Shown: positions 17,191-41,188 of the stretch, piece by piece
Position numbering within the stretch: position 1 is the stretch's first letter
Layout: each line of letters opens with the position of its first letter
Assembly: GCF_019968765.1 (NCBI RefSeq)
Contig: NZ_CP074149.1
Span: 3,038,001 to 3,102,000, forward strand
Source of the DNA: Enterobacter sp. JBIWA008
GTDB lineage: Bacteria > Pseudomonadota > Gammaproteobacteria > Enterobacterales > Enterobacteriaceae
Reading direction: 5' to 3'
Length of the DNA stretch: 64,000 bases
Translations under genes and position numbers: made by a program
Notes under the pieces: model-generated
The model's input: only the letters and a program-made list of their open reading frames with translations
Database searches by the model: none
What the model was told of the DNA's origin: nothing

Positions 17191-17266
17191 TCCTCTGTAG
17201 TTCAGTCGGTAGAACGGCGGACTGTTAATCCGTATGTCACTGGTTCGAGTCCAGTCAGAGGAGCCA
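17191..17266 (+). tRNA. asnT: tRNA-Asn (GTT), copy 1, asnT position
   Basis: This is a 76-base cloverleaf: acceptor stem TCCTCTG with CAGAGGA, D-arm TAGTTCAGTCGGTAGAA, anticodon loop CTGTTAA with GTT, T-arm GGTTCGAGTCC, encoded CCA. It is identical to the copies at 23748, 41113 (minus) and 42908. The position after mtfA matches asnT of E. coli. Its usual downstream terminator (AAGCCTGCTTT type, seen at the other copies) is replaced by island DNA, so its 3' end serves as the left attachment site of the element that follows. Confidence 0.97.
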
Positions 17267-17327
17267 AATTCTAGTCTCAGGACATCTCAATGAGTCCGGA
17301 GGCGTTTCAAAAACAAGCAGTTAGATT

Positions 17328-17363
17328 GACCCGGCTATCCTGATTAGGAAACCGGGTCTTTTT
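17328..17363 (+). terminator. Terminator carried in the left arm of element A
   Basis: GACCCGG (17328-17334) pairs with CCGGGTC (17352-17358), with an inner TCCT/AGGA pairing, followed by TTTTT. It replaces the native tRNA-Asn terminator. The same structure is found in element B at 41015-41051. Confidence 0.8.
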
Positions 17364-17452
17364 ATACCTGTAGTATTATAGTTTGGTCTTGGTTAATAAA
17401 CAGGGCATTAAAATCACTGAGTATTCATAAGTTTCTGCTTCCTGCTATATTG

Positions 17453-18838
17453 CTATAAATAATAAGAAACATTACCCTGAATATCCGCTGGGATTTGTGA
17501 CATATCCCCCCCTTCGACGATATTACCCCAGACCACGATTGTTTTATCGTCCTTTAGGGCAATAAAGCTCGTACAACCAGCATAAACAGCACGAACTCCA
17601 TGCAAAAGATCTTCTACTGGTGTCTGATCAATATTAAGCCCCCATGAGATTACCGACCCATCCTTTTTCAGACCACAGCATGTACCGTAACCACAGCTTA
17701 CTGAAATAACATCAGTAGTAGCCGGAACATTCACAATTTGTTCAAGTCCTCCCCATGCGCACAATGAGCCATCAGCACAAATTGCAACGTATGCAGAAAC
17801 CATTGGCTGTGGTGCCGGGTCATAGCCATAGCAAAAAGAAACATCAACAATGTCACTTCGTTCAAGAATATTTGCTGGAATAGAACCTCCATCGCTGGCC
17901 GCACCCCAGGCTACAACGGAACCATTTTTACGTAATGCTACAAAAGAGCTTCTGCCGTTAATCACTCTATCAATGTCTGTTAAAGACTGAATATCGAGTG
18001 GAATTATACCACCCCATTCTGGAAGGCCCCAGCCTACAATTTGGCCATTGCCGCGAAGCGCAACACACGCGCCATCATTTACATAGATTTGTGTAATATC
18101 ACTCAGCTCAGAGATATACGCAGGAACGTTGTTTTCTCCAGCGAGATCTGACCAGGAATACACTTTCCCGGCAGTAGAAAGGATATAACCACCATTACCA
18201 TTAATGAATGCATTTTTGATATCAGACATGCTGACAATTGCTTCTGGAGGAGGGTTCTGGCGCGCCCAGGTTTCTATATAGGGGTAATTATCGCCAAGAA
18301 CCATTGCCCCCCCATAAGTATGAGCAGCATTAATATCACTGCGCTGGGAAATATCCGGTGGAATAACCCCTCCAGATTCGGACCAACCCCAGCCAAATAT
18401 TGAACCATCTTCGCGTAGTGCTAAAAACGATTCGGTTCCACTAATGATTTGTTTTACTCCATGATTATCGACAGCAGGAATTTCTGGATACATACCAGAT
18501 GTGTATTTATTTCCCCATGGTGATAAAGTCATGTCATCTTTAAGTGCTACTAGTATGCTATAATCTAAAATTCCGCCCTCTCCCGGTGAATTAAAGTTTG
18601 CTCTATTGATTCTTTGTACGTTACCCTGCTGGTCGGTTACAAGAAGATATTTAGATGGCTCAGTGTCAATGAAATAATCAGCGTCAAAAAATACCGTATC
18701 GCCTTCATAGCTCCATCGTACCGTTGCAGGCTCAAACGTTGTGCTATCAAAAGCGACAATTCTTTTGTAGCCACCATTCGGCATTGCATTGTCAACACAT
18801 TGGGTTCGGCTACCCATTACAATTACATTCGAGAACAT
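17453..18838 (-). CDS. RCC1-like repeat protein of unknown function (island cargo)
   Basis: The 461-residue product has no signal peptide or membrane helix. After about 90 residues it consists of around nine units of 35-50 residues, each ending in a strand pair of the form VALR-x-DGS-hh-x-WG: seen near residues 96, 138, 179, 218, 258, 299, 350, 388 and 425. This is the RCC1/BNR-type blade signature, so a beta-propeller is expected; several units also carry a following GG-x-IP-x-DI segment. A good ribosome site (AAGGTGG) precedes the ATG. Base composition is clearly AT-richer than the flanks, a sign of transfer. The RCC1 family is known in eukaryotes for Ran exchange and in bacteria from effectors and other secreted or binding proteins, but no function can be inferred here. 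It is alone in element A. Confidence 0.8.
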   Translation of the reverse strand: MFSNVIVMGSRTQCVDNAMPNGGYKRIVAFDSTTFEPATVRWSYEGDTVFFDADYFIDTEPSKYLLVTDQQGNVQRINRANFNSPGEGGILDYSILVALKDDMTLSPWGNKYTSGMYPEIPAVDNHGVKQIISGTESFLALREDGSIFGWGWSESGGVIPPDISQRSDINAAHTYGGAMVLGDNYPYIETWARQNPPPEAIVSMSDIKNAFINGNGGYILSTAGKVYSWSDLAGENNVPAYISELSDITQIYVNDGACVALRGNGQIVGWGLPEWGGIIPLDIQSLTDIDRVINGRSSFVALRKNGSVVAWGAASDGGSIPANILERSDIVDVSFCYGYDPAPQPMVSAYVAICADGSLCAWGGLEQIVNVPATTDVISVSCGYGTCCGLKKDGSVISWGLNIDQTPVEDLLHGVRAVYAGCTSFIALKDDKTIVVWGNIVEGGDMSQIPADIQGNVSYYL

Positions 18839-19250
18839 AAATCCACCTTTTCTTTTGGAAATTAATAAGTATGTTGCGCATTATTTATAGCATTGATAAT
18901 TTATTCCAGACGACTGATTTTTGCTCTTCGTTAAGCAAAAATTGCTTTATTTATAGAGGGATATACTCGGGTGTCTGTACAGTCCTCATTTTTCAGTGGT
19001 GAAGTGCTGTCGCGGTTATTTGCATTATGCAAAAATTGACACGGATTTTTCTATTAATAATAGCTGGAATAGTTCATTCTGAGCTAAACATGATGGGTTT
19101 GGGATGACTACAAAATATAAGTGACAACCGCAGAGACATGGTTTAAATCACATTTAAAGACAATAATATCACCTGGGGCTTTTTTGAGGGCCTCATTTTT
19201 TAATGCCGATAAAAAATGTTATAATGCAAAACAATAAAGTAATAATCGCA
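18839..19250. other. AT-rich stretch without a recognisable gene, right part of element A
   Basis: These 412 bases contain the promoter region of the RCC1-like gene and no convincing reading frame on either strand. A short minus-strand run near 19120-19195 reads like a decayed beta-rich coding piece (PGDIIVFKCD), but it has no start and is too short to assign. Confidence 0.5.
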
Positions 19251-19297
19251 TCCAGCCAGAGGATCCAAATTCTTGTCTCTATGCGTCTCAGTAAGTC
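19251..19297 (+). repeat. Degenerate copy of the tRNA-Asn 3' end and element left arm (att-like)
   Basis: The 17-base tRNA tail is present with two changes (TCCAGCCAGAGGATCCA), followed by AAATTCT and about 24 more bases related to the left arm at 17267-17296. Identity with 17250-17296 is 37 of 47 by direct count. It marks the right edge of element A or the left edge of a second, tandem element. Confidence 0.75.
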
Positions 19298-19396
19298 TCA
19301 AGAATTTTTTGATTCAGTGAGGCCGTGGAGAAACTTGTCTCAGCGGATATTGATTTATCTCTCCGCATCAGGGCAAATTAGTGGTCTGATTTGGAT

Positions 19397-19727
19397 TCAT
19401 TTCACTTCGATAATACCGTTACGGAAGGATTTTTCTCTTAGTTTATCAGCAACCTGTGCTGGTACAGGTGCCCCCAGACCCGAGCTTGCTGCTTCAAGCC
19501 ATTTCTCAGAATCTGATAGCGTCTCGCACCTCCCTTTGCCACACATGGCTCATCCCTCGCGGTTTTGATACAGGCATAAATCGGCTTAATCCCGGAGTCC
19601 GCAGGGAACACCAGTCTGTAATGCGTTCTTCCAGTACCGGGAATGGCGGTGTCGTGTATTCATTTTTGCCGTCAGGAATGGGCGTGGCGAGTATTGTAGC
19701 CTGGTCTATTGGCCTGATGTCGCTGAA
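19397..19727 (-). pseudogene. Fragment of an S-type pyocin/colicin DNase-type bacteriocin gene
   Basis: Three minus-strand frames in succession give pieces of one protein: IDQATILATPIPDGKNEY then PPFPV, next VFPADSGIKPIYACIKTARD then EPC, and last GAPVPAQVADKLREKSFRN, ending at a stop at 19397-19399. These match, in order, the end of the Pyocin_S domain (FPADSG-KP-Y... block) and the first part of the colicin E/pyocin HNH DNase domain (..GAPIP..IADKLR-K-F..). Frameshifts separate the pieces. The catalytic HNH part is missing and no immunity gene follows, so the gene is dead. It lies between the att-like site at 19251 and the truncated gene at 19906. Confidence 0.75.
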
Positions 19728-19906
19728 TTATTCGGGAGTGGGCTGAATGCCGTTATCCATCGAAGGGCAGCGCAGGTGGGAGCGAAGCTGTCCCCGCGGC
19801 CACTTAGCCAACGATCCATTAAGGAAAGGGTGGCGGAGTTGAGCGGCGGTTGATCAAATTCCCCCATGCCGGGAGCACCTTCCGCGTCATAAACCACGGC
19901 TTTCAT
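19706..19906 (-). pseudogene. Truncated gene start behind ridA-like gene
   Basis: The ATG at 19904-19906 shares ATGA with the stop of the RidA-family gene and opens with MKAVVYDAEGAPG, like the first strand of a zinc-type alcohol dehydrogenase/quinone oxidoreductase. The likeness is lost after about 15 residues, and the frame then runs into the bacteriocin remnant and stops at 19706. I read this as an operon partner cut off by the island junction. The family is a guess. Confidence 0.4.
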
Positions 19907-20322
19907 CCATTTTCCCCTACCTCATCAAGACCCGTGGGCAGCCTGGCAATCACCTTAATCTCAAACTGGAATCCGTACAGCCACGTCACGCCGATCCCGG
20001 TCAACGTAGGGTAAGGCGCTTCCCCCCAATATTCTGGCAGGATACTCCAGATAGCATCGAGGTTTGTCTCGGGATCGACGACAAAGAGGGTAACGTCAAC
20101 CACGTCATCGAACGTGCAGCCCGCCGCCGCGAGAACAGCAATCAGGTTATCGAATGCCAGCCGGATCTGCGCGTTGAGATCCTCTTCAGGCGAACCATCC
20201 TCCCGGCTACCAACCTGCCCCGAAACAAACAGGAAGCCGTTAGATTTGATGGCCGGTGAATACCGATTGCGCTCATACAGCGCCTGTCGACCAAAGGGAA
20301 AAACTGCTTCGCGTGCTGTCAT
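19903..20322 (-). CDS. RidA/YjgF/UK114-family protein
   Basis: The 139-residue product shows the RidA-family core: YSPAIKSNGFLFVSGQVG, a middle AFDNLIAVLAAAGCTFDDVV and TLFVVDP, and a final FQFEIKVIARLP strand. Family members are small trimeric cytosolic proteins that hydrolyse reactive enamine/imine intermediates or related compounds in specific catabolic routes. The canonical arginine contact of RidA is not obvious at the last strand, so it may belong to another subfamily. It is divergent from the LysR gene at 20464 (141 bp between them) and overlapped its lost downstream partner by ATGA. Confidence 0.85.
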   Translation of the reverse strand: MTAREAVFPFGRQALYERNRYSPAIKSNGFLFVSGQVGSREDGSPEEDLNAQIRLAFDNLIAVLAAAGCTFDDVVDVTLFVVDPETNLDAIWSILPEYWGEAPYPTLTGIGVTWLYGFQFEIKVIARLPTGLDEVGENG

Positions 20323-20463
20323 GTTTGTACCTCTGTAATGGGGCGAAATGAGCCAGGTGAATATAAAGACACTTTACAGGTGCCAGTTCGGGCGGATAAA
20401 CAAGCGACTTTGTCCATCATTGTTTGTAATATCCAAACAATCGGTGAAAAGAGAGGACAAGGG

Positions 20464-21390
20464 ATGGATCGTTTCGATGCGATGCGCGCCTTTGCTCGCG
20501 TGGTGGAGGCAGGCAGTTTCACAAAGGCTGCCCAAACGCTCCATATGAGCAAAACCACGGTGACGCAGCTTATTCAGCAGCTGGAAGCACGCCTGCGCGT
20601 CAGGCTGCTCCATCGCACCACCCGCAGGCTCGGCGTCAGTCCCGATGGCGCGGTCTACTACGAGCGCGTCATTCGCCTGCTGGCGGACATGGAAGATGCT
20701 GAAAACAGCCTGTCCAGTGCGGCGATAACCCCCAGGGGACGGCTACGGGTAGATGTGCCCACTCCTCTCGCCCGCTTTGTGCTGGTGCCCGCGCTACCGG
20801 CTTTTCACGCGCGCTTCCCTGAGATCCAGTTCGACATGGGCGTGAGTGACCGGGTGGTGGATCTGATCGGCGATAACGTGGATTGCGTCCTGCGGGGCGG
20901 CGAAATTAATGACCAGTCCCAGATCGCACGCCATGTCGGCGATTTGCAAATCGGTGTTTACGTCGCACCGAGTTATGTGCAACGCCTCGGCGCCCCTGCG
21001 CATCCGCGAGAGCTGGAAAACACGGACCATCGCATAGTGGGATTCTTGTCCTCACGCACCGGTAAGGTTGATCCTCTGGTACTGCGCGGTGAGAGTGAAC
21101 ATATTGAAATCACGGGAAACTATGTGCTTGCAGTGGATGATGGTAATGCTTACCTCGAAGCAGGGCTCGCGGGATTAGGCGTGATTGCGCTGCCGGTCTA
21201 TATGGCGGCAGCGCATCAGACTGCTGGCTCTTTAATTCCGCTATTTGAACAATGGCGTATTAAGCCAATGCCCCTGTACCTGGCATTTCCGCCGAACCGC
21301 CACGTCAACGCCAAACTGCGCGTTTTTATTGATTGGATCGTTGAACTGATGCAGCAGCATGTCCCCACTGCCATCGATAAGTTGCCGTAA
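20464..21390 (+). CDS. LysR-family transcriptional regulator divergent from the RidA-family gene
   Basis: I start the gene at ATG 20464, preceded by GAGAGGACAAGGG. That gives the standard LysR opening MDRFDAMRAFARVVEAGSFT and 308 residues; upstream in-frame codons back to 20338 would add a segment not typical of the family. The N-terminal HTH (MSKTTVTQLIQQLEARL, LLHRTTRRLGVSPDG) is followed by an effector domain from about residue 90. The divergent layout with a RidA-family gene suggests it controls that locus; a small catabolic operator in the 141-bp gap is likely but I could not pick it out. Confidence 0.9.
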   Translation: MDRFDAMRAFARVVEAGSFTKAAQTLHMSKTTVTQLIQQLEARLRVRLLHRTTRRLGVSPDGAVYYERVIRLLADMEDAENSLSSAAITPRGRLRVDVPTPLARFVLVPALPAFHARFPEIQFDMGVSDRVVDLIGDNVDCVLRGGEINDQSQIARHVGDLQIGVYVAPSYVQRLGAPAHPRELENTDHRIVGFLSSRTGKVDPLVLRGESEHIEITGNYVLAVDDGNAYLEAGLAGLGVIALPVYMAAAHQTAGSLIPLFEQWRIKPMPLYLAFPPNRHVNAKLRVFIDWIVELMQQHVPTAIDKLP

Positions 21391-21426
21391 CGAGCACGGC
21401 TGTCTGGACGTTTATTCAGTCGAGGA

Positions 21427-21452
21427 GCCCGGTAAGCGCCGCGCTACCGGGC
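21427..21452. repeat. REP-like hairpin between convergent LysR and cbl genes
   Basis: GCCCGGTA (21427-21434) and TACCGGGC (21445-21452) enclose GCGCCGCGC. It lies between two convergent stops and could slow transcription from both sides. There is no T-run. Confidence 0.6.
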
Positions 21453-21462
21453 AAATCAGCAC

Positions 21463-22413
21463 CTAAATCTGATAATCAATCGCCACTTCTTCCGGCTCCA
21501 TCACCTGGCGTTTAATCTCGTCCACCGACAGCCCTGCGTTGCAGAGCTCGATAAAGCGCCACACATAGTTGCGCTGCAGCTGCCCGCGCTTCAGGCCAAG
21601 CCATACGGTGTTTGCGTCAAACAGGTGACGCGTATCAAGACGCACCAGGTTTCCGTCCTCGCGTTCTCCGCTGGACTGTTCCGCCACCAGACCAATGCCC
21701 AGACCCAGCTCGACGTAGGTTTTGATCACATCAGAATCCTGCGCGCTCAGCACCACGTCAGGCGTTAGCCCTTTGCGGTTGAAGGCTTCATCAATGCGCG
21801 AGCGTCCGGTTATGCCCTGGCGGTATGTGATCAGCGGCCATTTCGCAATGTCTTCCAGCGTCAGGGGAGAGACCTGATTCAGCGGATGATCGACCGGGAG
21901 TAGTAAACTGTGGTACCAGCGGAACCAGGGGAAAGCCACCAGCAGCGGGTCGTTGCTCAGACGTTCGCTGGCAATACCGATATCTGCCCCACCGTTTTGC
22001 AGCAGCACTTCAATTTCCTGCGGCGTGCCCTGGATAAGCTCCAGACGGACGTCAGGGAAAAGTTCGCGGAAAGCTTTAATCACCGGCGGAAGGCTGTAGC
22101 GCGCCTGGGTGTGGGTGGTGGCGATGGTGAGTACGCCGGAGGCATCATTGGTGAAGAGATCCGCCAGACGACGCACGTTGCTTGCCTCGTTGAGGATCCG
22201 CTCAGCGATGGTGAGCAGAGCCTTACCCGGCTCCGTCATGCCGAGCAGCCGCTTGCCGCGACGGATAAAGATTTCGATGCCCAGCTCCTCTTCCAGCTCG
22301 CGGATATGGCGGCTGACGCCGGACTGAGAGGTATAAAGCATATTGGCGACCTCGGTCAGGTTATAGTCCCGCCTGGCCGCCTCACGGATAATTTTAAGTT
22401 GCTGGAAATTCAC
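21463..22413 (-). CDS. cbl: Cbl, LysR-type regulator of sulfate-starvation genes
   Basis: The 316-residue protein matches E. coli Cbl almost throughout: MNFQQLKIIREAARRDYNLT, the TSQSGVSRHIRELEEELGIE recognition helix, and the C-terminal IDYQI. Cbl is the CysB-like activator of genes for sulfonate and taurine use (ssu, tau) and responds to adenosine 5'-phosphosulfate. It lies 97 bp downstream of nac on the same strand; in E. coli Nac can act on cbl, linking nitrogen and sulfur control. The neighbour order cbl-nac-tRNA-Asn-ldtA is as in E. coli. Confidence 0.95.
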   Translation of the reverse strand: MNFQQLKIIREAARRDYNLTEVANMLYTSQSGVSRHIRELEEELGIEIFIRRGKRLLGMTEPGKALLTIAERILNEASNVRRLADLFTNDASGVLTIATTHTQARYSLPPVIKAFRELFPDVRLELIQGTPQEIEVLLQNGGADIGIASERLSNDPLLVAFPWFRWYHSLLLPVDHPLNQVSPLTLEDIAKWPLITYRQGITGRSRIDEAFNRKGLTPDVVLSAQDSDVIKTYVELGLGIGLVAEQSSGEREDGNLVRLDTRHLFDANTVWLGLKRGQLQRNYVWRFIELCNAGLSVDEIKRQVMEPEEVAIDYQI

Positions 22414-22509
22414 GATTCACTCCGGCGCATCTGACATAGCTCTATTGTTAGAGTCAGCCGCGCTGCAGAACAAATAATAAAAACCAGCATCTTATGCTTT
22501 TATGGAATA

Positions 22510-23427
22510 TCAGCTCACAAGCTGGAGTTCACGGTTCTCAAGCGATGGCTTGCTGACCAGCGACATCAAAATCTCTTTTACCGCCTGCGCCTGCGGCGAC
22601 AGCGAACCGCGTGCGGACATGTTCAGCGACAGCGGCAGGCTCATGGAAGGCGTGGTGATGCGCGCCATCCAGCCGTTCGCCGCGCTGCACAGCGAGCGGG
22701 CTGCGGATTCTGGCAGAACGGTCACACCCATGCCGCTGGCAATGGCTGCGGTGAGCGTGGAGATTGAGTCAATTTCGCCGATGATTTTGGCCGTCAGGCG
22801 GCGCAGGGAGAACGCTTCGTCCACGCGCACGCGCACGGCGCTGTAGTCGCGCGGCAGATAGAGATTCATTTCTGCCACGGCGGCAAGGTCGACGCTCTGG
22901 CCCGGACAGTCGCGGGTGCCCACGAGATAGAGATCTTCTTTCAGCAGCGGCTGGCTGGTAATCCCGGCAACCGGAGAACGATCGTAAAGGACCGCCATGT
23001 CCAGCTGACCACTGAGCAGTTTATCATTCAGGACAGAACCGCTGTTTTCGTGCAGATAGACCAGCACTTCAGGCAGCTCAGCGCGGACGGCCTGCAGCAG
23101 CGGCATGGTAATTGAGGACGCGGCCGTTCCCGGCGCCAGGCCGATAGAAACGTGCCCGCTCAGGGTCTGGCCCACGTTATTCACCGCAAGCTGCGCCTGT
23201 TCACACTGGCGAAGAATAGTGCGCGCGTGGGTATACAGAATCTTACCGGCTTCCGTTGGCGTGACGCCGCGCTTGGTGCGAATCAACAGCTGCTGATCCA
23301 TCTCGCCTTCCAGAGTAGCCACCTGCTGGCTCAGCGCAGGCTGCGCGATATGCAGCACTTCTGCCGCTTGAGTCAGGCTGCCGATATCGACGATTTTTAC
23401 GAAGTATTTCAGTCGTCTTAAGTTCAT
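22510..23427 (-). CDS. nac: Nac, nitrogen assimilation control LysR-type regulator
   Basis: The 305-residue protein opens with MNLRRLKYFVKIVDIGSLTQ and continues with the HIAQPALSQQVATLEGEM recognition helix, as in Nac of Klebsiella and E. coli. Nac couples sigma-70 operons to nitrogen limitation: it activates hut, put and ure type genes and represses gdhA, without a small-molecule effector. Its own promoter is visible: a -24/-12 element at 23484-23499 and an NtrC site at 23617-23633. It is followed by cbl. Confidence 0.95.
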   Translation of the reverse strand: MNLRRLKYFVKIVDIGSLTQAAEVLHIAQPALSQQVATLEGEMDQQLLIRTKRGVTPTEAGKILYTHARTILRQCEQAQLAVNNVGQTLSGHVSIGLAPGTAASSITMPLLQAVRAELPEVLVYLHENSGSVLNDKLLSGQLDMAVLYDRSPVAGITSQPLLKEDLYLVGTRDCPGQSVDLAAVAEMNLYLPRDYSAVRVRVDEAFSLRRLTAKIIGEIDSISTLTAAIASGMGVTVLPESAARSLCSAANGWMARITTPSMSLPLSLNMSARGSLSPQAQAVKEILMSLVSKPSLENRELQLVS

Positions 23428-23483
23428 TTTGCCCCCTGTTCGAAATGCTGTGCCGTAACCGGCTGTCGTTGTTGAACAGGTTT

Positions 23484-23499
23484 TGCAAGATGAATGCCA
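23484..23499 (-). promoter_or_regulatory. Sigma-54 promoter of nac
   Basis: On the minus strand the sequence TGGCATTCATCTTGCA has the GG and GC dinucleotides with exactly 10 bases between them, matching the TGGCAC-N5-TTGCW consensus except for one base. It lies 57 bp upstream of the nac ATG. Confidence 0.85.
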
Positions 23500-23616
23500 C
23501 TTTTACCAGGCGGTCCAAATTGTTCGCTAAGCGCCTGAAAATAAGGAAACCTAATCATGGAGGGGGGTTTTATTACCGAAACAGCAGTTTATGATCTGCC
23601 CCATTAGAGGTATACG

Positions 23617-23633
23617 TGCACCAAAGCGGTGCA
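23617..23633. promoter_or_regulatory. NtrC-binding enhancer site for nac
   Basis: TGCACC-AAAGC-GGTGCA is a perfect dyad matching the NtrC consensus (TGCACC-N5-GGTGCA). It lies about 120 bp upstream of the sigma-54 promoter, the usual enhancer distance. Confidence 0.85.
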
Positions 23634-23700
23634 CTCCGCTGTCAAAAACAGCAGTTTGCCGATTTTGTCAGCAAACGATCAAAAGGCGTTGATCCACCCT

Positions 23701-23729
23701 TTGACAAGGCGAACGCAGGTCGATAATAT
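23701..23729 (+). promoter_or_regulatory. Promoter of tRNA-Asn copy 2
   Basis: TTGACA (23701-23706) and TAATAT (23724-23729) with a 17-bp spacer lie 18 bp before the tRNA. Confidence 0.85.
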
Positions 23730-23747
23730 GCGCCCCGTTCACACGAT

Positions 23748-23823
23748 TCCTCTGTAGTTCAGTCGGTAGAACGGCGGACTGTTAATCCGTATGTCACTGG
23801 TTCGAGTCCAGTCAGAGGAGCCA
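23748..23823 (+). tRNA. asnV: tRNA-Asn (GTT), copy 2, asnV position
   Basis: The 76 bases are identical to copy 1 with anticodon GTT and encoded CCA. It sits between nac and ldtA as asnV does in E. coli. Its native downstream arm, AAATTTGAAAGCCTGC followed by the terminator, is intact, so this locus is empty of islands. Confidence 0.97.
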
Positions 23824-23830
23824 AATTTGA

Positions 23831-23856
23831 AAGCCTGCTTTTAAAGCAGGCTTTTT
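23831..23856 (+). terminator. Native tRNA-Asn terminator, copy 2
   Basis: AAGCCTGC pairs with GCAGGCTT around TTTTAAA, followed by T's. The same module is at 42989-43017 and, in reverse, at 39108-39136. Confidence 0.85.
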
Positions 23857-23898
23857 GCTTTTCTGCATCTGGTAAATTGTCGGGCGGCGAAAATCAAC

Positions 23899-24795
23899 TC
23901 ACATGCCAATTTTAACCGGCATCCCTGACCGCCGTTCCAGTTCAGCTCCCGCCCCCGCATTTATCAACTGCGTTCGCTGCGCGGCTGAAATGGGCAGAGG
24001 CACTTTCCGGGTTGATTCAAACTCCGCGCGGTTACGTGATAATGGCTCGTGAACCTCCATCCAGCGGCTGCCATCAGGCTCGATGGTAACCTTAACGGGC
24101 CTGTCGATAAGCTGCACGCGGGTTCCTACGGGAACGTTATCGAAAAGGTATTTGATGTCGTTATTGCGCAGACGAATACAGCCCTGACTCACCCGCAGCC
24201 CGATGCCGAAATTCGAGTTTGTGCCGTGAATGGCATACAGCCTGCCAATATAAATCGCATACAGCCCCATCGGGTTATCCGGCCCGGCGGGCACGAATGC
24301 CGGAAGCGTTTTCCCTTCAGCCGCATAGGCACGCCGCGTATTGGGCGTCGGAGACCAGGTTGGTCCCTCCTGCTTACGCTCAACGGCCGTCACCCAGTTA
24401 CGCGGGGTTTCGCGCCCGGCCTGACCGATGCCGATGGGCAATACTTCAACGGTGTTTCCGCCTGGCGGGTAGTAGTAAAGGCGCATTTCTGCCGCGTTAA
24501 CGATAATGCCCTCGCGGACGGTGTCAGGCAGAATCAGCTGCTGAGGTATTACCAGCCGGGTGCCGGATTTGGGCAAAAAAGGATCCACGCCCGGGTTTGC
24601 TTCCAGCATATTGCTTAGCCCCTGCCCATACCGCGCGGCAAAGGCCTCAAGCGGTAACGTATTGCGCTCGGGAACGGTGATGTTAATCGGGGTTCCCACC
24701 AGACGACTGCCTTCCGGCGGTAGGGTATAGGTTACGGCAAACGCGCCGGGAACAGCGGCACACAGCGTAAGGACGAACCAGGTAAATCGCATCAT
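23899..24795 (-). CDS. ldtA: L,D-transpeptidase (ErfK/YbiS/YcfS/YnhG family), LdtA
   Basis: The 298-residue precursor has a signal peptide ending AFA (residue 20), a LysM-like region (residues 38-85) and a YkuD catalytic domain with H190-G in [11 protein letters not shown] and the nucleophile in SQGCIRL (C206). LdtA works in the periplasm and anchors Braun lipoprotein to diaminopimelate of peptidoglycan. It follows E. coli ErfK closely and has the same position after the tRNA gene. Two adjacent ATGs are possible; the AGGA ribosome site fits either. Confidence 0.95.
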
Positions 24796-24809
24796 AATTT
24801 CCTGTGCTC

Positions 24810-24845
24810 AAAAAAGAGAAAGCCTGGGCTCAGGCAGGCTTTCTC
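24810..24845 (-). terminator. Terminator after the P-type ATPase gene
   Basis: On the minus strand GAGAAAGCCTG and CAGGCTTTCTC form an 11-bp stem followed by six T's. Confidence 0.9.
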
Positions 24846-34116: not shown

Positions 34117-34372
34117 CGTTATTCCCTCAGCTTAACTCACGCAGCGGTCACTATTACTGTAAACCATTAAGCACTTACCGGAGACGAGCAGACATAATTA
34201 TATCGGCGCAGGTGTAGATGAAATTTATTTATTCAGCGCCTTCCGGAAAGATAAAAACGTTTTCTCAGGCGTTTTGTCGCGGTAGTCTCATAGGTTCCGT
34301 TTATATGACGGACGCAATGTGAGTGACCTTTTCTTATACCAATAATTAAAAATCAGTACGGACAGGACTACT

Positions 34373-35686
34373 ATGGACTCCACCCTCATCTCCGATCGTC
34401 CCAACGAGGAGACACCTTCGCTCAATCGTGCCCGCCGCGCAGCACTCGGCAGCTTCGCGGGTGCCGTCGTCGACTGGTATGATTTTCTGCTTTACGGCAT
34501 CACTGCCGCCCTGGTGTTTAACCGCGAGTTTTTCCCCCAGGTCAGCCCCGCGATGGGCACGCTCGCCGCGTTTGCCACCTTCGGCGTCGGCTTTCTGTTT
34601 CGCCCGCTGGGCGGTGTGATCTTCGGCCACTTCGGCGACCGCCTCGGCCGCAAGCGCATGCTGATGCTCACCGTCTGGATGATGGGGATCGCCACTGCGC
34701 TTATCGGTATTCTCCCCTCGTTTGCCTCTATCGGCTGGTGGGCACCGGTACTGCTGGTCACCCTGCGCGCCATCCAGGGCTTCGCCGTAGGCGGCGAATG
34801 GGGCGGTGCGGCACTGCTGTCCGTTGAGAGCGCGCCAAAAAATAAGAAAGCGTTTTACAGCAGCGGCGTGCAGGTGGGGTACGGCGTCGGCCTGCTGCTA
34901 TCCACCGGGCTGGTATCGCTAATCAGCCAGCTCACCACCGACGAGCAGTTCCTGAGCTGGGGCTGGCGTATTCCGTTCATCTTCAGCATCGTGCTGGTCA
35001 TTGCCGCGCTGTGGATCCGTAACGGAATGGAGGAGTCGGCAGAGTTCGAAAAGCAGCAGGAAAAACCGGCCGCTAACAAAAGACTTCCGGTCATGGAAGC
35101 CCTCGTCCGGCACCCTGGCGCTTTTCTGAAAATTATTGCCCTGCGCCTGTGCGAACTGCTGACGATGTATATCGTCACCGCGTTTGCCCTGAACTACTCG
35201 ACGCAGAATCTCGGCCTGCCGCGCGAACTGTTCCTGAATATCGGCCTGCTGGTCGGCGGGATCAGCTGCCTGACAATCCCCTGCTTCGCCTGGCTGGCGG
35301 ACCGGTTTGGCCGCCGTCGCGTTTACATCACCGGGGCGCTGATTGGTACCCTCAGCGCCTGGCCATTCTTTATGGCGCTGGAGGCGCAGTCGATCTTCTG
35401 GATTGTCTTCTTCGCCATCATGCTCGCGAATATCGCTCACGATATGGTGGTCTGTGTGCAACAGCCGATGTTTACCGAGCTGTTCGGCGCCAGCTACCGC
35501 TACAGCGGCGCGGGCGTGGGCTACCAGGTCGCAAGCGTGGTCGGCGGCGGGTTTACGCCGTTTATTGCCGCCGCGCTGGTGACCTTCTCCGGCGGCAACT
35601 GGCACAGCGTGGCGATTTATCTGCTGGCCGGTTGCCTGCTGTCGGCGGCGACGGCGCTGCTGATGAAAGAGACGAGCCACGGCTGA
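34373..35686 (+). CDS. shiA: Shikimate/proton symporter
   Basis: The 437-residue metabolite:H+ symporter follows E. coli ShiA closely, including MDSTLIS at the start, SFAGAVVDWYDFLLYGITAA, the GGEWGGAALLSVE loop and a C-terminal ALLMK. It brings shikimate and dehydroshikimate into the cell. shiA followed by amn is the E. coli order. The amn gene has its own upstream region 73 bp on. Confidence 0.95.
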   Translation: MDSTLISDRPNEETPSLNRARRAALGSFAGAVVDWYDFLLYGITAALVFNREFFPQVSPAMGTLAAFATFGVGFLFRPLGGVIFGHFGDRLGRKRMLMLTVWMMGIATALIGILPSFASIGWWAPVLLVTLRAIQGFAVGGEWGGAALLSVESAPKNKKAFYSSGVQVGYGVGLLLSTGLVSLISQLTTDEQFLSWGWRIPFIFSIVLVIAALWIRNGMEESAEFEKQQEKPAANKRLPVMEALVRHPGAFLKIIALRLCELLTMYIVTAFALNYSTQNLGLPRELFLNIGLLVGGISCLTIPCFAWLADRFGRRRVYITGALIGTLSAWPFFMALEAQSIFWIVFFAIMLANIAHDMVVCVQQPMFTELFGASYRYSGAGVGYQVASVVGGGFTPFIAAALVTFSGGNWHSVAIYLLAGCLLSAATALLMKETSHG

Positions 35687-35699
35687 TCTCCCTTTTGTT

Positions 35700-35715
35700 T
35701 CACAGGCGTGTGACA
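35700..35715 (-). promoter_or_regulatory. Possible Pho box upstream of amn
   Basis: On the minus strand TGTCA and TGTGA begin 11 bp apart, the spacing of PhoB half-sites (CTGTCAT-N4-CTGTCAC). amn belongs to the Pho regulon in E. coli. The same bases also form a TCACA/TGTGA dyad, so the call is weak. Confidence 0.35.
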
Positions 35716-35759
35716 TACTATCGGGTAGAGTCGCACACCTGTGGAACAAGGAGACAGAG

Positions 35760-37214
35760 ATGAATAATAAGGGCTCCAGCCTGACCCCGGCTCAGGCGCT
35801 GGAAAAACTCGACGCGCTGTATGAACAGTCCGTCAACGCGCTGCGCGGCGCCATCAGCGAATATATCGAAACAGGGAAACTTCCCGACCAAAAGGCCAGA
35901 ACCGAGGGCCTTTTTGTTTATCCATCGCTCTCTGTAACCTGGGACGGCAGCGCCAGCACGACGCCGAAAACCCGCGCCTACGCCCGTTTTACCCACTCCG
36001 GCTGCTACAGCACCACCGTCACCCGCCCTGCGCTGTTCCGACCGTATCTTGAAGAACAACTCACGCTGTTGTACCAGGATTACGGCGCGCACATTGCCGT
36101 TGAGCCCTCGCAGCATGAGATCCCGTATCCGTACGTGATTGACGGTTCGGCGCTAACCCTTGACCGCTCCATGAGCGCGGGGCTGACCCGCCACTTCCCG
36201 ACGACGGAGCTTTCACAGATTGGCGATGAGACGGCCGACGGGATTTATCACCCGGCAGAATTTTCTCCCCTGTCGCATTTTGATGCCCGCCGGGTCGATT
36301 TCTCCCTGGCGCGCCTGCGCCACTACACCGGTACGCCAGTCGAACATTTCCAGCCGTTCGTGCTTTTTACCAACTATACCCGCTACGTTGACGAGTTTGT
36401 CCGCTGGGGCTGCAGCCAGATCCTCGATCCGGAAAGCCCGTACATCGCGCTGTCCTGCGCGGGCGGGATCTGGATCACCGCGGAGACCGAAGCGCCCGAG
36501 CAGGCCATTTCCGACCTGGCGTGGAAAAAGCACCAGATGCCCGCCTGGCACCTGATCACCGCCGACGGTCAGGGCATCACCCTGATCAACATCGGCGTTG
36601 GCCCGTCAAATGCCAAGACCATCTGCGACCATCTGGCGGTACTGCGCCCGGACGTGTGGCTGATGATTGGCCACTGCGGTGGCCTGCGTGAAAGCCAGCT
36701 GATTGGCGACTACGTGCTGGCCCACGCCTATCTGCGCGATGACCACGTGCTTGATGCGGTCCTGCCGCCGGACATCCCAATCCCGAGCATCGCCGAAGTA
36801 CAGCGCGCGCTGTATGACGCCACTAAAGAGGTGAGCGGCATGCCGGGTGAAGAGGTTAAACAGCGCCTGCGCACCGGTACGGTCGTCACAACGGATGACC
36901 GCAACTGGGAGCTGCGCTACTCCGCCTCCGCGCTGCGGTTCAACCTGAGCCGCGCGGTGGCAATCGATATGGAAAGCGCCACCATTGCCGCGCAGGGGTA
37001 TCGCTTCCGCGTTCCCTACGGCACGCTGCTTTGCGTCTCCGATAAGCCGCTGCACGGTGAAATTAAGCTGCCGGGCCAGGCCAACCGTTTCTACGAAGGG
37101 GCTATCTCTGAGCATCTGCAGATTGGTATACGCGCCATTGATTTGCTGCGGGCAGAAGGTGACAGGCTCCATTCCCGCAAGCTGCGCACCTTCAACGAGC
37201 CGCCGTTCCGCTAA
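35760..37214 (+). CDS. amn: AMP nucleosidase
   Basis: Amn splits AMP to adenine and ribose 5-phosphate in the cytosol, lowering adenylate pools. The 484 residues match the enterobacterial enzyme: an N-terminal regulatory domain (about 1-175) and a C-terminal nucleoside-phosphorylase-like domain with NIGVGPSNAKTICDHLAVLR, the GHCGGLRESQ loop and a DMESATIAAQGYRFRVPYG-type substrate segment. AAGGAG precedes the ATG. The peptidase gene follows after 18 bp and is probably cotranscribed. Confidence 0.95.
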   Translation: MNNKGSSLTPAQALEKLDALYEQSVNALRGAISEYIETGKLPDQKARTEGLFVYPSLSVTWDGSASTTPKTRAYARFTHSGCYSTTVTRPALFRPYLEEQLTLLYQDYGAHIAVEPSQHEIPYPYVIDGSALTLDRSMSAGLTRHFPTTELSQIGDETADGIYHPAEFSPLSHFDARRVDFSLARLRHYTGTPVEHFQPFVLFTNYTRYVDEFVRWGCSQILDPESPYIALSCAGGIWITAETEAPEQAISDLAWKKHQMPAWHLITADGQGITLINIGVGPSNAKTICDHLAVLRPDVWLMIGHCGGLRESQLIGDYVLAHAYLRDDHVLDAVLPPDIPIPSIAEVQRALYDATKEVSGMPGEEVKQRLRTGTVVTTDDRNWELRYSASALRFNLSRAVAIDMESATIAAQGYRFRVPYGTLLCVSDKPLHGEIKLPGQANRFYEGAISEHLQIGIRAIDLLRAEGDRLHSRKLRTFNEPPFR

Positions 37215-37232
37215 TAACGATAAGGAAAAACA

Positions 37233-38999
37233 ATGTCCAGCACATCTCCGCTCTCTGCACTGCGCCACTGGCTTGAGGCCAGCCATCTCGACGGGATGAT
37301 CGTCCCGCGCGCGGATGCCTGGCAGAGCGAATACTGCGCGCCTTACGACGAAAAGCTGGCCTGGCTGACGGGCTTTGACGGTTCGGCCGGCGTGGCGCTG
37401 GTGTTGAAAAACAAAGCGCTGCTGTTCGTCGACGGGCGCTATCAGGTTCAGGCGCGCGTTCAGGTCAATACGGATGAGGTTGAGATCCACCACCTGCACA
37501 ACGAGCCGCTGGCAGAATGGCTTGCAGAAAACGTTGAGGCCGGAACGCGCATCGGTTTTGACGCGCTGCTGATGACCAATTCGGAGTTTGAGCAACTGTC
37601 TGCCACGCCGTGCGAGCTGGTACCTCTGAAGGCCTCGCCGTTTGACACCCTGTGGACTGACCGTCCTGCCGCACCGGCGGGTCTTATCCGTGAAATGCCG
37701 GTTGAACACAGCGGCGAACGCAGCGCGGACAAACGTCAGCGCGTCGCCGCCGTGCTGGCTGCAAACAATGCCGATTATCTCGCCGTCACCCTGCCGGATA
37801 ACATCGCCTGGCTGTTAAACGTGCGTGGCTCCGATATTCCCTACAGCCCAGTACCGCTCTCCTTTGCCCTTCTTGGTCGTGACGGTCACGTTGAGTGGTT
37901 TGTTAACGACAATAAGCTCAGCGCCCTGCCTGACGATGTGCGCAATGCGTTCACCATTGCGCCGCAGGATACCTTTATTGAACGCTGCCAGCAGATTGCT
38001 GAAGGCAAACGGGTGATGGTTGATGCCGATTCCGCGCCGGTTGCCCTGCGCTTCGCCATTGAGCCACGGGGAGAAATTGTCTGGCGGACTGACCCCATCA
38101 CCCTGATGAAATCGACTAAAAACCCGGTCGAGCTGGCAGGTTATCGCGAGTGCCATCACCAGGACGGGGCCGCGTGGGTCAACTTCCTCGCCTGGCTCAG
38201 CCGTGAAGTGCCGCTGCGCGAGGCGGCAGGGCAACCGCTCACCGAGCTGGACGCGCAGGCGCAGCAGCTTGCGTTCCGTCAACAGCAGCCCGGGTTCATC
38301 GAGCAGAGTTTTGCCACCATCTCCGCCTCTTCGAGCAATGCGGCGATGTGCCACTATCATTCGAGCGAGGCCAGCAATAAGCCTATCGGCCATGACCATT
38401 TTTACCTGAACGATTCCGGCGGCCAGTACGTAAACGGCACCACCGACGCCACGCGCACGCTGGCGTGGGGTAAAGTCGATCCGCAGCAGCGCCTGCACTA
38501 CACTGCCGTGCTGAGAGGCTTTCTGTCGCTCATTACCCTGCAGTTCCCTTCCGGGACTCAGGGGCATCAGCTGGATGCGTTTGCGCGTCGCCCGCTGTGG
38601 GAGATGGGTCTGGATTACGATCACGGCACGGGACACGGGGTGGGACACCAGCTGCTGATCCATGAGAACCCGCATCGCATCGCCAAAAAGGTCAACCCGT
38701 GGCCGCTGGTGGCGGGCAATATCATGACTATCGAGCCGGGCTACTATCTGGGCGACAGCCACGGTATTCGTATTGAAAACCAGGTGGAGATTGTGGAGAG
38801 TCGTCCGGGGTTCTGCAGATTTGCCTCGCTGACGCTGATCCCGATTGATTTAAGCCAGGTGGAATTGCATCTGTTGAGCGAGCAGGAAAAGCAGTGGCTG
38901 GATGCGTATCACCGGCAGGTACGCGAGGCGCTCTCACCTCTGGTGAATAGCGATGCGCGTCCGTGGCTGTTTGAGGCGACGGCACCGATTGGCGTGTAA
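37233..38999 (+). CDS. Xaa-Pro aminopeptidase-like M24 peptidase
   Basis: The 588-residue protein has the three-part layout of the long aminopeptidase P family: two creatinase-like N-terminal domains (LSALRHWLEASHLDGMIVPR, FDGSAGVAL, then RQRVAAVLAANNADYLAV) and a C-terminal pita-bread M24 domain. The two-metal ligands are visible as D in YLNDSGGQY, D in GTTDATRT, H in GTGHGVGH, E in TIEPGYY and E in GIRIENQVE. It removes N-terminal residues before proline in the cytosol. This place is occupied by yeeN in E. coli K-12, so the gene is a local difference. A hairpin and terminator follow at 39029-39084. Confidence 0.9.
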   Translation: MSSTSPLSALRHWLEASHLDGMIVPRADAWQSEYCAPYDEKLAWLTGFDGSAGVALVLKNKALLFVDGRYQVQARVQVNTDEVEIHHLHNEPLAEWLAENVEAGTRIGFDALLMTNSEFEQLSATPCELVPLKASPFDTLWTDRPAAPAGLIREMPVEHSGERSADKRQRVAAVLAANNADYLAVTLPDNIAWLLNVRGSDIPYSPVPLSFALLGRDGHVEWFVNDNKLSALPDDVRNAFTIAPQDTFIERCQQIAEGKRVMVDADSAPVALRFAIEPRGEIVWRTDPITLMKSTKNPVELAGYRECHHQDGAAWVNFLAWLSREVPLREAAGQPLTELDAQAQQLAFRQQQPGFIEQSFATISASSSNAAMCHYHSSEASNKPIGHDHFYLNDSGGQYVNGTTDATRTLAWGKVDPQQRLHYTAVLRGFLSLITLQFPSGTQGHQLDAFARRPLWEMGLDYDHGTGHGVGHQLLIHENPHRIAKKVNPWPLVAGNIMTIEPGYYLGDSHGIRIENQVEIVESRPGFCRFASLTLIPIDLSQVELHLLSEQEKQWLDAYHRQVREALSPLVNSDARPWLFEATAPIGV

Positions 39000-39028
39000 T
39001 TTCGTGCGGTCTGGTGCCCTCACCCCAT

Positions 39029-39048
39029 CCCTCTCCCGTGGGAGAGGG
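39029..39048. repeat. CCCTCTCCC/GGGAGAGGG intergenic hairpin
   Basis: A 9-bp perfect stem with GT at its centre, set in CCCTCACCCCATCCCTCTCC. This text is common as a dispersed palindromic element between enterobacterial genes. Confidence 0.6.
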
Positions 39049-39060
39049 AGCAAATACTAA

Positions 39061-39084
39061 AAACGGCAACCTGGTTGCCGTTTT
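39061..39084 (+). terminator. Terminator after the M24 peptidase gene
   Basis: AAACGGCAA and TTGCCGTTT form a stem around CCTGG and are followed by T's. It serves the amn-peptidase unit. Confidence 0.8.
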
Positions 39085-39107
39085 GCGTTTACCTTGCGCA
39101 GAAAAGC

Positions 39108-39136
39108 AAAAAGCCTGCTTTAAAAGCAGGCTTTTT
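39108..39136 (-). terminator. Displaced native terminator of the asnW tRNA
   Basis: AAAAAGCCTGC/GCAGGCTTTTT is the module that directly follows the tRNA-Asn copies at 23748 and 42908. Here it is 1.97 kb away from its tRNA (41113-41188), on the far side of element B, which shows that the element was inserted between them. Confidence 0.8.
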
Positions 39137-39158
39137 AAATTTGGCTCCTCTGACTGGA
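39137..39158 (-). repeat. Right attachment site of element B (22-bp direct repeat)
   Basis: AAATTTGGCTCCTCTGACTGGA is identical to 41108-41129. It contains the last 17 bases of tRNA-Asn plus the five bases after it. Confidence 0.9.
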
Positions 39159-39424
39159 TGCGCTTTCTAATTTATCAGATTGAATTATATAGCATTTTTA
39201 AGGTTAACATGAGGCTCTTATTAAGGTCCCAAATGGTGCAACCGTCCATAAATGTTATTTATATCACTATTTTAAAGCGATCTTTTTACTTACTGATAGC
39301 GAAGCATACTTTCCTGTATTCATGTTTAGTAAGGCTACCACTAAATTAAGTGATGCAGAGCAATGAATGCATCGGGAGTATGCTGTTTATGCACAATGGA
39401 GCTTTATTGTATATTTCTTGATGG
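39159..39424. other. AT-rich non-coding right part of element B
   Basis: No reading frame with a credible start or family likeness on either strand. This is probably decayed element DNA. Confidence 0.5.
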
Positions 39425-39447
39425 AAAACGGAGCTGCCAGCAGCCCC
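39425..39447 (-). terminator. Possible terminator of the element B cargo gene
   Basis: On the minus strand GGGGCTGC and GCAGCTCC form a stem (one G-T pair) followed by GTTTTCC, 22 bp after the stop codon. Confidence 0.45.
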
Positions 39448-39469
39448 GCCTATTTATCTGAATGAAAAT

Positions 39470-40462
39470 TCATACCTCCTGAAAATAGAAATTAAACTTA
39501 CCGGTAACTTCTACCAGAGGGGAGGTGTTGTTAACTAATGTATATGTACTTTGCTGTCCAAACTCTGTCAGTAAAAAATTGTCAGGGTACCACCGCTCAC
39601 CAGAAACTGTGAAGGTATGCTGAATACTCTGATTCCCATTATTAATTTCGAGAGTTACAGGCACTGCAGTGCTCTCTTCGATAGAAGCGACACTCATATA
39701 TTCACGGGTTGGCGAAGTTCGGGTGTATATAACATGTGATGATGCATCGGCGGGAAGAACAAATCCGATAGTATCGCTCTGGATTTCCCATAGCTGGAGA
39801 TAAAAACTCACCTGAACAGGGTTTCCGGAAATGGTGCTGTTGATTGCATAAAAATTATAGGACTCTCCGGGCTCCATTGTAAGATCAAGACTACGACCTT
39901 CCCACTTACAATTCTCAGCTAAATATTGATAGTTCGCCGATTCAAATTTGAATTGCCCGATGATGTTACCCTTGGTATTTTCAAGTTCCACAGTTACAGG
40001 GTATTCTGATGACTTCAGCATGGATAATGTAAAAGATTCGTACGTTTCAGCGGTTAATGTAGTCAGTAAGCTACGCTCTCCCGAACCGGCCGGGAGGGAG
40101 ATATCCGTAGATTTTTCCGTTGCCGGATAAAAGTTGAGAGAAAAGTCTCCACTGGTGGAGGTATCGGTCATAACGTAAAAATTCAGCGTCTGACCTGCGG
40201 GGATCAGAAAATCTGAATCATAGGCGGTATAGTCAAATCCGAGAAAGGTACTCTTAAGAATTTCTGATTCACTCCAGCCAACACCAAGACTGAAATAATT
40301 AACCTCCACTGAAGAGGAGAGTCGTTCTACTGAAAACATTTCATCTTCCGCAGGCGTGCGCTGGTAAAATTGGGAGTATTGAAACACCCCACTGGAATCT
40401 GGACCTTCTGAAAAATATGGCACAATTTCACTTTCGCTAATTTTATCGTTCATATAAGACAT
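39470..40462 (-). CDS. Tandem-repeat protein of unknown function (island cargo)
   Basis: The 330-residue acidic product has no signal peptide and no membrane helix. I do not recognise its family. It is built from an internal repeat of about 105-110 residues: LIPAGQTLNFYVMTDTSTSG (from 86) equals LTMEPGESYNFYAINSTISG (from 194) and the partial LTEFGQQSTYTLVNNTS (from 298); the second half of the unit, with SLPAGSGER.. and SSEYPVTVELEN (122-162), equals VLPADASSH.. and STAVPVTLEINN (235-275). The strand-rich, aromatic pattern suggests two and a half beta-sandwich domains, as in adhesin- or ligand-binding proteins. AGAAGG precedes the ATG and a TATAAT hexamer lies at 40479-40484 on the minus strand. 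Confidence 0.75.
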   Translation of the reverse strand: MSYMNDKISESEIVPYFSEGPDSSGVFQYSQFYQRTPAEDEMFSVERLSSSVEVNYFSLGVGWSESEILKSTFLGFDYTAYDSDFLIPAGQTLNFYVMTDTSTSGDFSLNFYPATEKSTDISLPAGSGERSLLTTLTAETYESFTLSMLKSSEYPVTVELENTKGNIIGQFKFESANYQYLAENCKWEGRSLDLTMEPGESYNFYAINSTISGNPVQVSFYLQLWEIQSDTIGFVLPADASSHVIYTRTSPTREYMSVASIEESTAVPVTLEINNGNQSIQHTFTVSGERWYPDNFLLTEFGQQSTYTLVNNTSPLVEVTGKFNFYFQEV

Positions 40463-40834
40463 GACCTTCTTAGTGGCAATTATAATGAAAGGGCTGAGTA
40501 AACACTACATGAACATAAAAGCATATTATTCGATGAGTCACGGAGCTATATTTGAATCCGAACAGAGCAAAAAAGAGAGATTTGCCCACTGGCAGCAGCA
40601 TGACTGACTGGTATTATTCCGTGAGTACGGAATCCTCTTGCGAGTAGGAGTAAAGCGTCGGGGACAACGAAACTGCAGGTATTTGCAGGTACGATCCGCA
40701 AAACTACTAACCGCAGGCGCTGAAGGCGCCAGGGATGAGAGTCAGGACATCAAATGTGTATTTCAGCAAGCATCGTAACAATTGAGGAGCTAAAGCGGCT
40801 ATCAGGCTCCAGGCAAAATGGGAAGCGAGAAGTT
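40463..40834. other. Promoter region of the cargo gene and decayed DNA of element B
   Basis: Apart from the TATAAT element there is only a 24-codon plus-strand frame at about 40532-40606 (..SKKERFAHWQQHD), slightly like the start of IS66-type accessory proteins but too short to call. The rest shows no structure I can name. Confidence 0.4.
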
Positions 40835-40948
40835 TTACCTTCTCACAATTAAAGGTTTGATCTGCAGATACAGCCCTGAGCTGTCGCCGAGTTTGAAGGG
40901 TTTGTTTGCGGGCTTGAGCTTGCGGATAGCGGTATCTGTTAATGCCAT
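40835..40948 (-). pseudogene. int: Truncated tyrosine integrase (P4/DUF4102 type), first 37 codons
   Basis: From ATG 40948 the minus strand reads MALTDTAIRKLKPANKPFKL, then GDSSGLYLQIKP, before leaving the family and stopping. This is the arm-binding N-terminus of P4-like island integrases (MALTDTAIR-AKP..KPYKL-DG-GLYL-V-P). The core and catalytic domains with the R-H-R-Y residues are gone. It starts 160 bp from the tRNA 3' end and is transcribed away from the tRNA, the usual place of such genes. Confidence 0.85.
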
Positions 40949-41014
40949 AACAGGGGGCTTCATTTGCTCACTGAACCGTGAGGTCCCCGATCAATCCCCA
41001 AAAACCACAGATGT

Positions 41015-41051
41015 CAAAAAACCCGGCAATCCTTTCCAGGACAGCCGGGTC
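41015..41051 (-). terminator. Terminator carried in the left arm of element B
   Basis: On the minus strand GACCCGGC.TCCT pairs with AGGA..GCCGGGT and is followed by six T's. It corresponds to 17328-17363 in element A. Confidence 0.8.
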
Positions 41052-41112
41052 AATATAACTGCTTTTTTTAAAAACGTCTTAAGACTCTCTGAGATGTCTT
41101 GAGACTAAAATT

Positions 41113-41188
41113 TGGCTCCTCTGACTGGACTCGAACCAGTGACATACGGATTAACAGTCCGCCGTTCTACCGACTGAACTACAGAGGA
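41113..41188 (-). tRNA. asnW: tRNA-Asn (GTT), copy 3, asnW position
   Basis: This is the same 76-base sequence as the other three copies, on the minus strand, before yeeO as asnW is in E. coli. Its 3' part belongs to the left attachment site of element B, so the island restored a complete tRNA on insertion. Confidence 0.97.

Follow-up and report, generated by a model that had tools for sequence, protein, structure and literature searches.

cis-Mobilizable elements (CIMEs) have lost their integration and transfer genes, keep the attachment sites attL and attR and can lie in tandem with other elements, as set out in excerpts of PMC5704250. Integrase-only islands of Escherichia coli, treated in parts of PMC10121019, carry no other known mobility gene and hold defence systems such as Gabija and CBASS (cyclic-oligonucleotide-based antiphage signalling system), with 18 hotspots in tRNA loci. 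The integrative and conjugative element (ICE) ICEKp and the Yersinia high-pathogenicity island (HPI) target four tRNA-Asn copies, with a 17-base repeat, CCAGTCAGAGGAGCCAA, and a P4-like integrase at the left end (PMC6202445, in extract). Here, we report two small elements, A and B, at tRNA-Asn genes in a 64,000-nucleotide stretch of Enterobacter sp. JBIWA008 (contig NZ_CP074149.1, positions 3,038,001 to 3,102,000), referred to below as the window. Both possess the two ends of a tRNA-Asn genomic island family, and we consider it probable (roughly 80%) that they are integrase-less, internally deleted, CIME-like members of that family.

The window contains four tRNA-Asn genes alike in all 76 bases (Table 1). 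The native terminator AAAGCCTGCTTTTAAAGCAGGCTTTTT follows those at 23748 and 42908, and a shared arm stands in its place after those at 17191 and 41113. Measured from core to core, A is 2001 bp and B 1971 bp long, with a G+C content of 40.9% and 42.4%, respectively, against 55.6% for the window, and each has one long intact gene, its cargo, and no further one. A preliminary description of this DNA had proposed approximately 2-kb single-gene elements at two tRNA-Asn genes, sharing a left arm that displaces the native terminator. Both proposals are confirmed by the coordinates, the open reading frames (ORFs) and the arms themselves, which are 80.6% identical over 129 bp, core included. Its 22-bp end repeats are exact in B (22 of 22), but A has two mismatches in 17, and its term integrase-less is apt in that neither element has an intact integrase, although B retains 32 integrase codons that it had overlooked.

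These features resemble those of CIMEs, in the parts of PMC5704250 cited above: A and B keep attL and attR (22 bases exact in B, 15 of 17 in A) and arms homologous to those of integrase-bearing islands; the integration and transfer genes are lost, with only integrase codons 1–32 left in B and none in A; and A lies in tandem, beside a fossil arm. By the same source, however, CIMEs derive from ICEs or integrative and mobilizable elements with transfer genes, whereas the 11 E. coli relatives that we opened have no annotated conjugation genes; A and B are also only 2 kb long with a single gene, and their mobilization is putative. ICEKp and the HPI, as far as PMC6202445 describes them, share the target tRNA-Asn and the same 17-base repeat, a likeness of description and not of sequence, but ICEKp is large and has excision and conjugation genes.

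The left-arm model matches the window at two places only (E 1.6e-23 and 6.4e-19), matches that are not independent, since the model includes the arms of A and B. On the inner side of their far core copy, and next to it, A and B also have a conserved stretch of about 135 bp in common with a Franconibacter element and three integrase-bearing islands. A hidden Markov model (HMM) of this right arm, trained on six islands with a complete or nearly complete integrase gene, int (frameshifted in one, L107; L and G numbers are our labels for loci and genomes), and on none of the small elements, matched the window only at 19131-19250 (E 4.5e-12) and 39267-39159 (E 3.8e-10), against a best E of 4.3 over 20 shuffled windows. 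Chance is ruled out for both ends of A and B, and on this comparison the right arms, overlooked in the preliminary description, are homologous as well. The trailer hairpin and the terminator hairpin of the left arm show compensatory changes: of 22 pairs, 10 are changed on both sides, and 96.6% of cells are paired against 90.0% in shuffles, none of 500 shuffles reaching as high and the signal being lost on sliding, counts that are not probabilities because the arm sequences are related.

Two congeners place the arm in context. Both G007 and G035 have the same arm after tRNA-Asn, and next in line is a full-length P4-type integrase of 420 aa (PF13356, PF22022 and PF00589). The G035 island, 9.1 kb long, occupies B's own site, adjoining the same aminopeptidase gene, and that of G007 occupies the tRNA beyond the yeeO-like gene. 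With the left-arm model R1, and counting the own genome, we detected the arm in seven of 61 genomes of the genus (E 1e-3); at family level it was present in 38 of 392 genomes, which belong to 26 of 154 genera (E 1e-8). We examined 53 arms, from 51 of 65 distinct places (14 were left out) and two Citrobacter loci. The bases before the arm are a tRNA-Asn-type 3′ end in 44, a tRNA-Phe-type 3′ end in eight and a contig end in one; ARAGORN found no whole tRNA at L110, L121, L123, L126, L132 and L138. A survey of relatives, as the preliminary description had suggested, finds the arm mostly after tRNA-Asn, with varied cargo. On these comparisons the left arm is the stretch that normally separates tRNA and integrase in a broad family of islands.

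At 12 of the 53 arms int is recovered in a single tblastn alignment of at least 410 of its 420 residues, and at 13 a right arm is detected. Among these 13 right-armed loci, int is in one piece in five (G007, G035, E. whittamii, L115 and L127), broken but mostly present in three (S. diarizonae L064, L107 and L119) and absent or reduced to at most about 78 codons in five, namely A (0 codons), B (32), Franconibacter (43), L114 (19) and L123 (about 67–78). The preliminary description would have taken A and B for just deletion remnants had the arms been confined to large islands with full-length integrases. They are not so confined, since two-ended integrase-less copies recur in other genomes.

The survey also turned up relatives with other targets or contents. 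The same arm architecture follows tRNA-Phe at L130, L135, L136, L141 and L145, and the Phe-side integrases, where the match is long, share about 60% identity with the Asn type in the matched region. Tandem second islands at the same tRNA-Asn sites (L059:14415 and L066:3140) have other arms and another integrase (about 55% over the matched part); this second type, in tandem in G007 and E. whittamii, may be HPI-like. In S. enterica subsp. diarizonae (L063:15142-17832), the arm is followed by int cut near codon 19 and then by an ORF of 896 aa that matches neither Pfam nor PADLOC and is next to an amn-like gene.

Empty sites in congeners show what the insertions changed. We searched 16 genomes of the genus for the flanks, own included, of which G001 and G007 gave no match. 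The B flank was found at 13 congener loci. In 11 of them the aminopeptidase gene directly adjoins an intact tRNA-Asn that has a native-type terminator, and these are empty loci of the kind that the preliminary description proposed for comparison; at L173 and L182 the fetched stretch contains no core. For the A flank, a complete tRNA-Asn and a native-type terminator are present nearby in three of five strongly matching congeners (G013, G012 and G003), L167 has imperfect core-like copies only and L168 has none. The close congener G013 is empty at both sites, with the native terminator at the A site; at the B site it is identical to the window over the last approximately 70 bases, core included, and the window departs from it at the right arm. 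The native terminator is present beyond the attR of B. These comparisons show precise, site-specific insertion that restored the tRNA and swapped its terminator for the arm's hairpin and terminator. The idea that the arm is native chromosomal sequence is rejected for B by the empty sites at 11 of 13 loci. A broader version, in which the arms are tRNA terminators and the cargo consists of ordinary accessory genes acquired by homologous recombination, with no link to mobile islands, draws on the arm's activity as a terminator and on its survival in many genomes with no integrase beside it, such as at the yeeO/yeeN-side tRNA-Asn of E. coli. It is contradicted by the attR copies, the right arms, the low G+C content, the integrase fragment of B and the empty congener sites, and we regard it as very improbable.

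The arm of A, used as a query, matches 4326 of 5426 E. coli genomes at least in part and 1943 of them over at least 80% of its length. In E. coli (L007 and L008) a fossil arm follows the yeeO-side tRNA-Asn, and then comes yeeN before amn; no right arm was found at either locus. At the same site E. whittamii (L066:14185) has a native-type terminator with amn close by. The yeeN gene may have been brought by such an island.

The right-arm query matched 24 of the 5426 E. coli genomes. Of the 11 such loci that we opened, 10 have the order int, small helix-turn-helix (HTH) genes, a second integrase gene (int2), cargo and right arm; in L158 and L160 the edge of the stretch truncates int, in L153 int lies beyond the fetched stretch, and both integrase genes are annotated as frameshifted in L155. 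The one int2 product tested contains PF12834 and PF12835. The 10 loci, which between them occupy all four tRNA-Asn copies, hold seven cargo sets, each between int2 and the right arm: GajA/GajB; LmuA/LmuB/LmuC-like genes; a YobI-ATPase with a Tmn match; a cyclase (CBASS) with Cap15 and a tetratricopeptide repeat (TPR) protein; a reverse transcriptase with Drt4/Drt6 matches; LmuA/LmuB, accompanied by PAAR and DUF2169 genes that lie between int and the HTH genes (in L160, LmuA has a frameshift); and a DUF4747 gene paired with a gene for a 185-aa protein. PADLOC matches to anti-phage genes (Gabija, Lamassu, CBASS cyclase, defence-associated reverse transcriptase (DRT) and others) occur in six of the seven sets, single-gene matches not amounting to whole systems and the cargo of L160, L163 and L164 being assigned through shared protein accessions. 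The DUF4747 pair, present in complete E. coli islands (L157:12387-13837) and in an integrase-less copy from another genus (L123:15847-17297), has no PADLOC match. In L158 and L164 the Asn island combines PAAR-like and DUF2169 (type VI secretion) genes with LmuA/LmuB matches. In the E. coli loci opened, complete members of the Asn family are integrase islands at tRNA genes that mostly carry matches to defence genes, and in this they resemble the islands of PMC10121019; the main text of that paper, in the part available, contains neither 'Asn' nor 'yeeO' and does not describe the arms, the int/int2 slot or integrase-less derivatives.

In these E. coli loci a complete member starts at tRNA-Asn with the left arm and int (420 aa), continues with small HTH genes and int2, then has between one and three cargo genes, and ends in the right arm and a copy of the tRNA 3′ end. 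Integrase-less two-armed copies are found in four genera: A and B, the Franconibacter element (2096 bp), L114 (genome G386, about 4.56 kb) and L123 (genome G481). B and Franconibacter have an exact 17-base attR core, whereas that of A has two mismatches and L123 has lost it. The origin of one such copy can be followed directly. Aligned with the complete E. coli PSUO2 island L157, L123 corresponds over positions 2-364 to the int side and over 353-2754 to the stretch from inside int2 to the right arm, at 88% identity each; about 3.5 kb is deleted, so that int codon ~68 runs on into int2 codon ~167, and the two pieces overlap by about 12 bases where they meet. The DUF4747 and 185-aa proteins of the two loci are 96–97% identical, and no whole tRNA stands beside the L123 arm. 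L123 is therefore the product of one deletion that fused int and int2 and kept the cargo.

In A the int–int2 chassis is absent and in B only 32 int codons remain, so both are derivatives and not complete members. Deletion of the chassis, as in L123 (where the attR core is also missing), would leave left arm, cargo, right arm and attR, but this route is only inferred for A and B because no parent with the same cargo was found. The left arm would be retained as the transcription end of the tRNA: once an island has inserted, the arm is the tRNA's only terminator and its loss should cost more than that of int, which would also explain integrase-less arms such as that at one E. coli tRNA-Asn. The cargo would be kept for its own function. 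A and B look like decayed islands, since both share their arms with integrase-bearing islands and B retains int codons 1–32. Several observations weigh against this account. No int2 remains were found in A or B, whose own deletion events are unseen, and no integrase fragment in A; no complete island with the cargo of A or B appeared in the family genomes searched; and the right arms score low. Their bit scores are 52.9 (A), 41.4 (B), 44.6 (Franconibacter), 31.1 (L123) and 87.2 (L114), against 41.1–90.7, all but one at least 63.1, for 13 integrase-bearing islands scored leave-one-out, a set whose scores are raised by its many related E. coli and in which two members have frameshifted integrases. 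The low-scoring right arms of A, B and Franconibacter may be worn or may simply have diverged.

The preliminary description preferred a family with fixed ends and exchangeable cargo and offered decayed P4-type islands as its alternative. Fixed ends and exchangeable cargo hold for the family, more strongly than proposed, since both ends are shared. The alternative is supported in part, by the arm–integrase context, the int start in B and the L123 deletion, and for A and B themselves decay appears to fit better.

A different reading makes A and B self-perpetuating, non-autonomous cassettes moved in trans by Asn-type integrases, much as miniature inverted-repeat transposable elements (MITEs) are moved by transposases. 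It gains from the spread of integrase-less two-armed copies over four genera, the exact cores of B and Franconibacter, the right arm of L114, which at 87.2 bits equals those of integrase-bearing islands, and the naming of Citrobacter amalonaticus for relatives of both rare cargo genes. The host genome has five long P4-type integrase matches, none of Asn type and the best only 51% identical to it, so a resident helper integrase is rejected; the known case, L123, is a simple deletion that lost its attR core; no same-cargo copy was seen by DNA at two sites or in two genomes; and A has a mismatched core, and both A and B low-scoring right arms. We therefore think such cassettes unlikely. As decayed islands, A and B could nevertheless still be excised or re-inserted by a cognate Asn-type integrase entering the cell, most plausibly B with its exact core, and an exact excision junction from rescue of B in trans would fall within TCCAGTCAGAGGAGCCA.

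Table 1 Features of elements A and B and of the tRNA-Asn genes, in window coordinates
Feature	Position	Strand	Basis or remark
tRNA-Asn, target of A	17191..17266	+	tRNA search
Element A	17267-19250		after tRNA-Asn 17191
A left arm	17267..17379	+	trailer hairpin and terminator in place of native one
A cargo gene	17453..18838	-	RCC1-like, 461 aa, towards tRNA
A right arm	19131..19250	+	pairwise comparison, independent HMM
A attR core	19251..19267	+	2 of 17 mismatched to tRNA end
Fossil of second tandem element	19268..19900	+	arm-like start, then pyocin-gene match (~19418-19718)
tRNA-Asn	23748	+	
B attR	39137..39158	-	exact 22-base copy of tRNA 3′ end and trailer start
B right arm	39159..39293	-	HMM match 39159-39267
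Element B	39159-41112		after tRNA-Asn 41113 (-)
B cargo gene	39470..40462	-	330-aa repeat protein, away from tRNA
P4-type integrase start in B	40853..40948	-	codons 1-32, remainder lost
B left arm	41000..41112	-	
tRNA-Asn, target of B	41113..41188	-	tRNA search
tRNA-Asn	42908	+	

On its right side, A adjoins the fossil arm of a second element, which the preliminary description overlooked. In E. coli FEX669 an island is placed between the tRNA and an older fossil arm, and insertion of this kind accounts for tandem arrangements like the one to the right of A. Within the fossil, 19418-19718 matches a gene with an S-type pyocin domain (80.8% over 47% of the query) in one of the 5426 E. coli genomes.

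The cargo genes of A and B are rare. The RCC1-like assignment of the A protein in the preliminary description is borne out by Pfam (PF13540, E 2.9e-19) and by profile matches to the structures of BLIP-II, UVR8 and RCC1. A search of 5.8 billion proteins gave five clusters, own included, for each of the A close family (at least 53% identity) and the B family. Across 295 family genomes the A protein has eight matches besides its own (E 1e-15), the best only 38% identical, and in the 5426 E. coli genomes the sole match to the interior of A is the right arm, in one genome. At L014 (genome G146), an RCC1-like 471-aa gene, 38% identical to that of A, adjoins tRNA-Gly on one side, its other neighbour being, we assume, a lysS-like gene. 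The B protein lies below every Pfam cut-off (the best being PKD, E 0.025) and, at E 0.01, matches nothing in PADLOC, NCBIfam or PHROG, but its description as a tandem-repeat protein was fair: at the best of 12 split points the internal repeat has a local score of 79, and 200 shuffles reached no more than 58. In the PDB its profile gave only weak matches, to guanylate kinases (E 0.0075 and worse), which were judged to be chance. The B interior has no match in the 5426 E. coli genomes, and the B family has none in two sets of 7 and 17 Citrobacter-group genomes; among the 392 family genomes only its own is found.

Relatives of both cargo genes are named Citrobacter amalonaticus (87% for the B family and 54% for the A family); their longest contigs are of equal length (471,055), and the two probably share one contig. 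The Franconibacter element has a single gene with a Vgb-like product (PF24684, E 1.9e-16). As RCC1 and Vgb each form a β-propeller, two of the three 2-kb elements carry propellers. None of these three cargo proteins has a PADLOC match at E 0.01, and no known defence family was matched; in E. coli, the cargo of L114 and Franconibacter gave no more than short partial matches. A phage origin was rejected, as viral contigs held no relative of A or B, and so was a plasmid origin, B having no match and A distant ones only (20 records, all below 60% identity). Our literature searches, within their scope, found no paper on bacterial RCC1 effectors and no integrase-less Asn cassettes like A and B. A defence role for the cargo of A and B is suggested only by the slot that it occupies. 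We would give little credence to the bolder proposal that two-ended cassettes are lasting hitch-hikers moved in trans and that their cargo (RCC1, Vgb-like, the B protein and the DUF4747 pair) comprises undescribed anti-phage or competition factors in the slot used by Gabija, Lamassu, CBASS and DRT.

Read as decayed islands, A and B bring together tRNA-Asn 'scar' terminators, integrase-only defence islands and single-gene inserts as parts of one family with recognizable ends. The two arms provide a search handle for its cargo slots. Because the slot mostly holds anti-phage matches in the E. coli loci opened, the genes in it that have no assigned role (the DUF4747 pair, the RCC1-like and Vgb-like genes and the B protein gene) become candidates. 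The family also raises the question of whether an incoming island may rescue a resident integrase-less piece.

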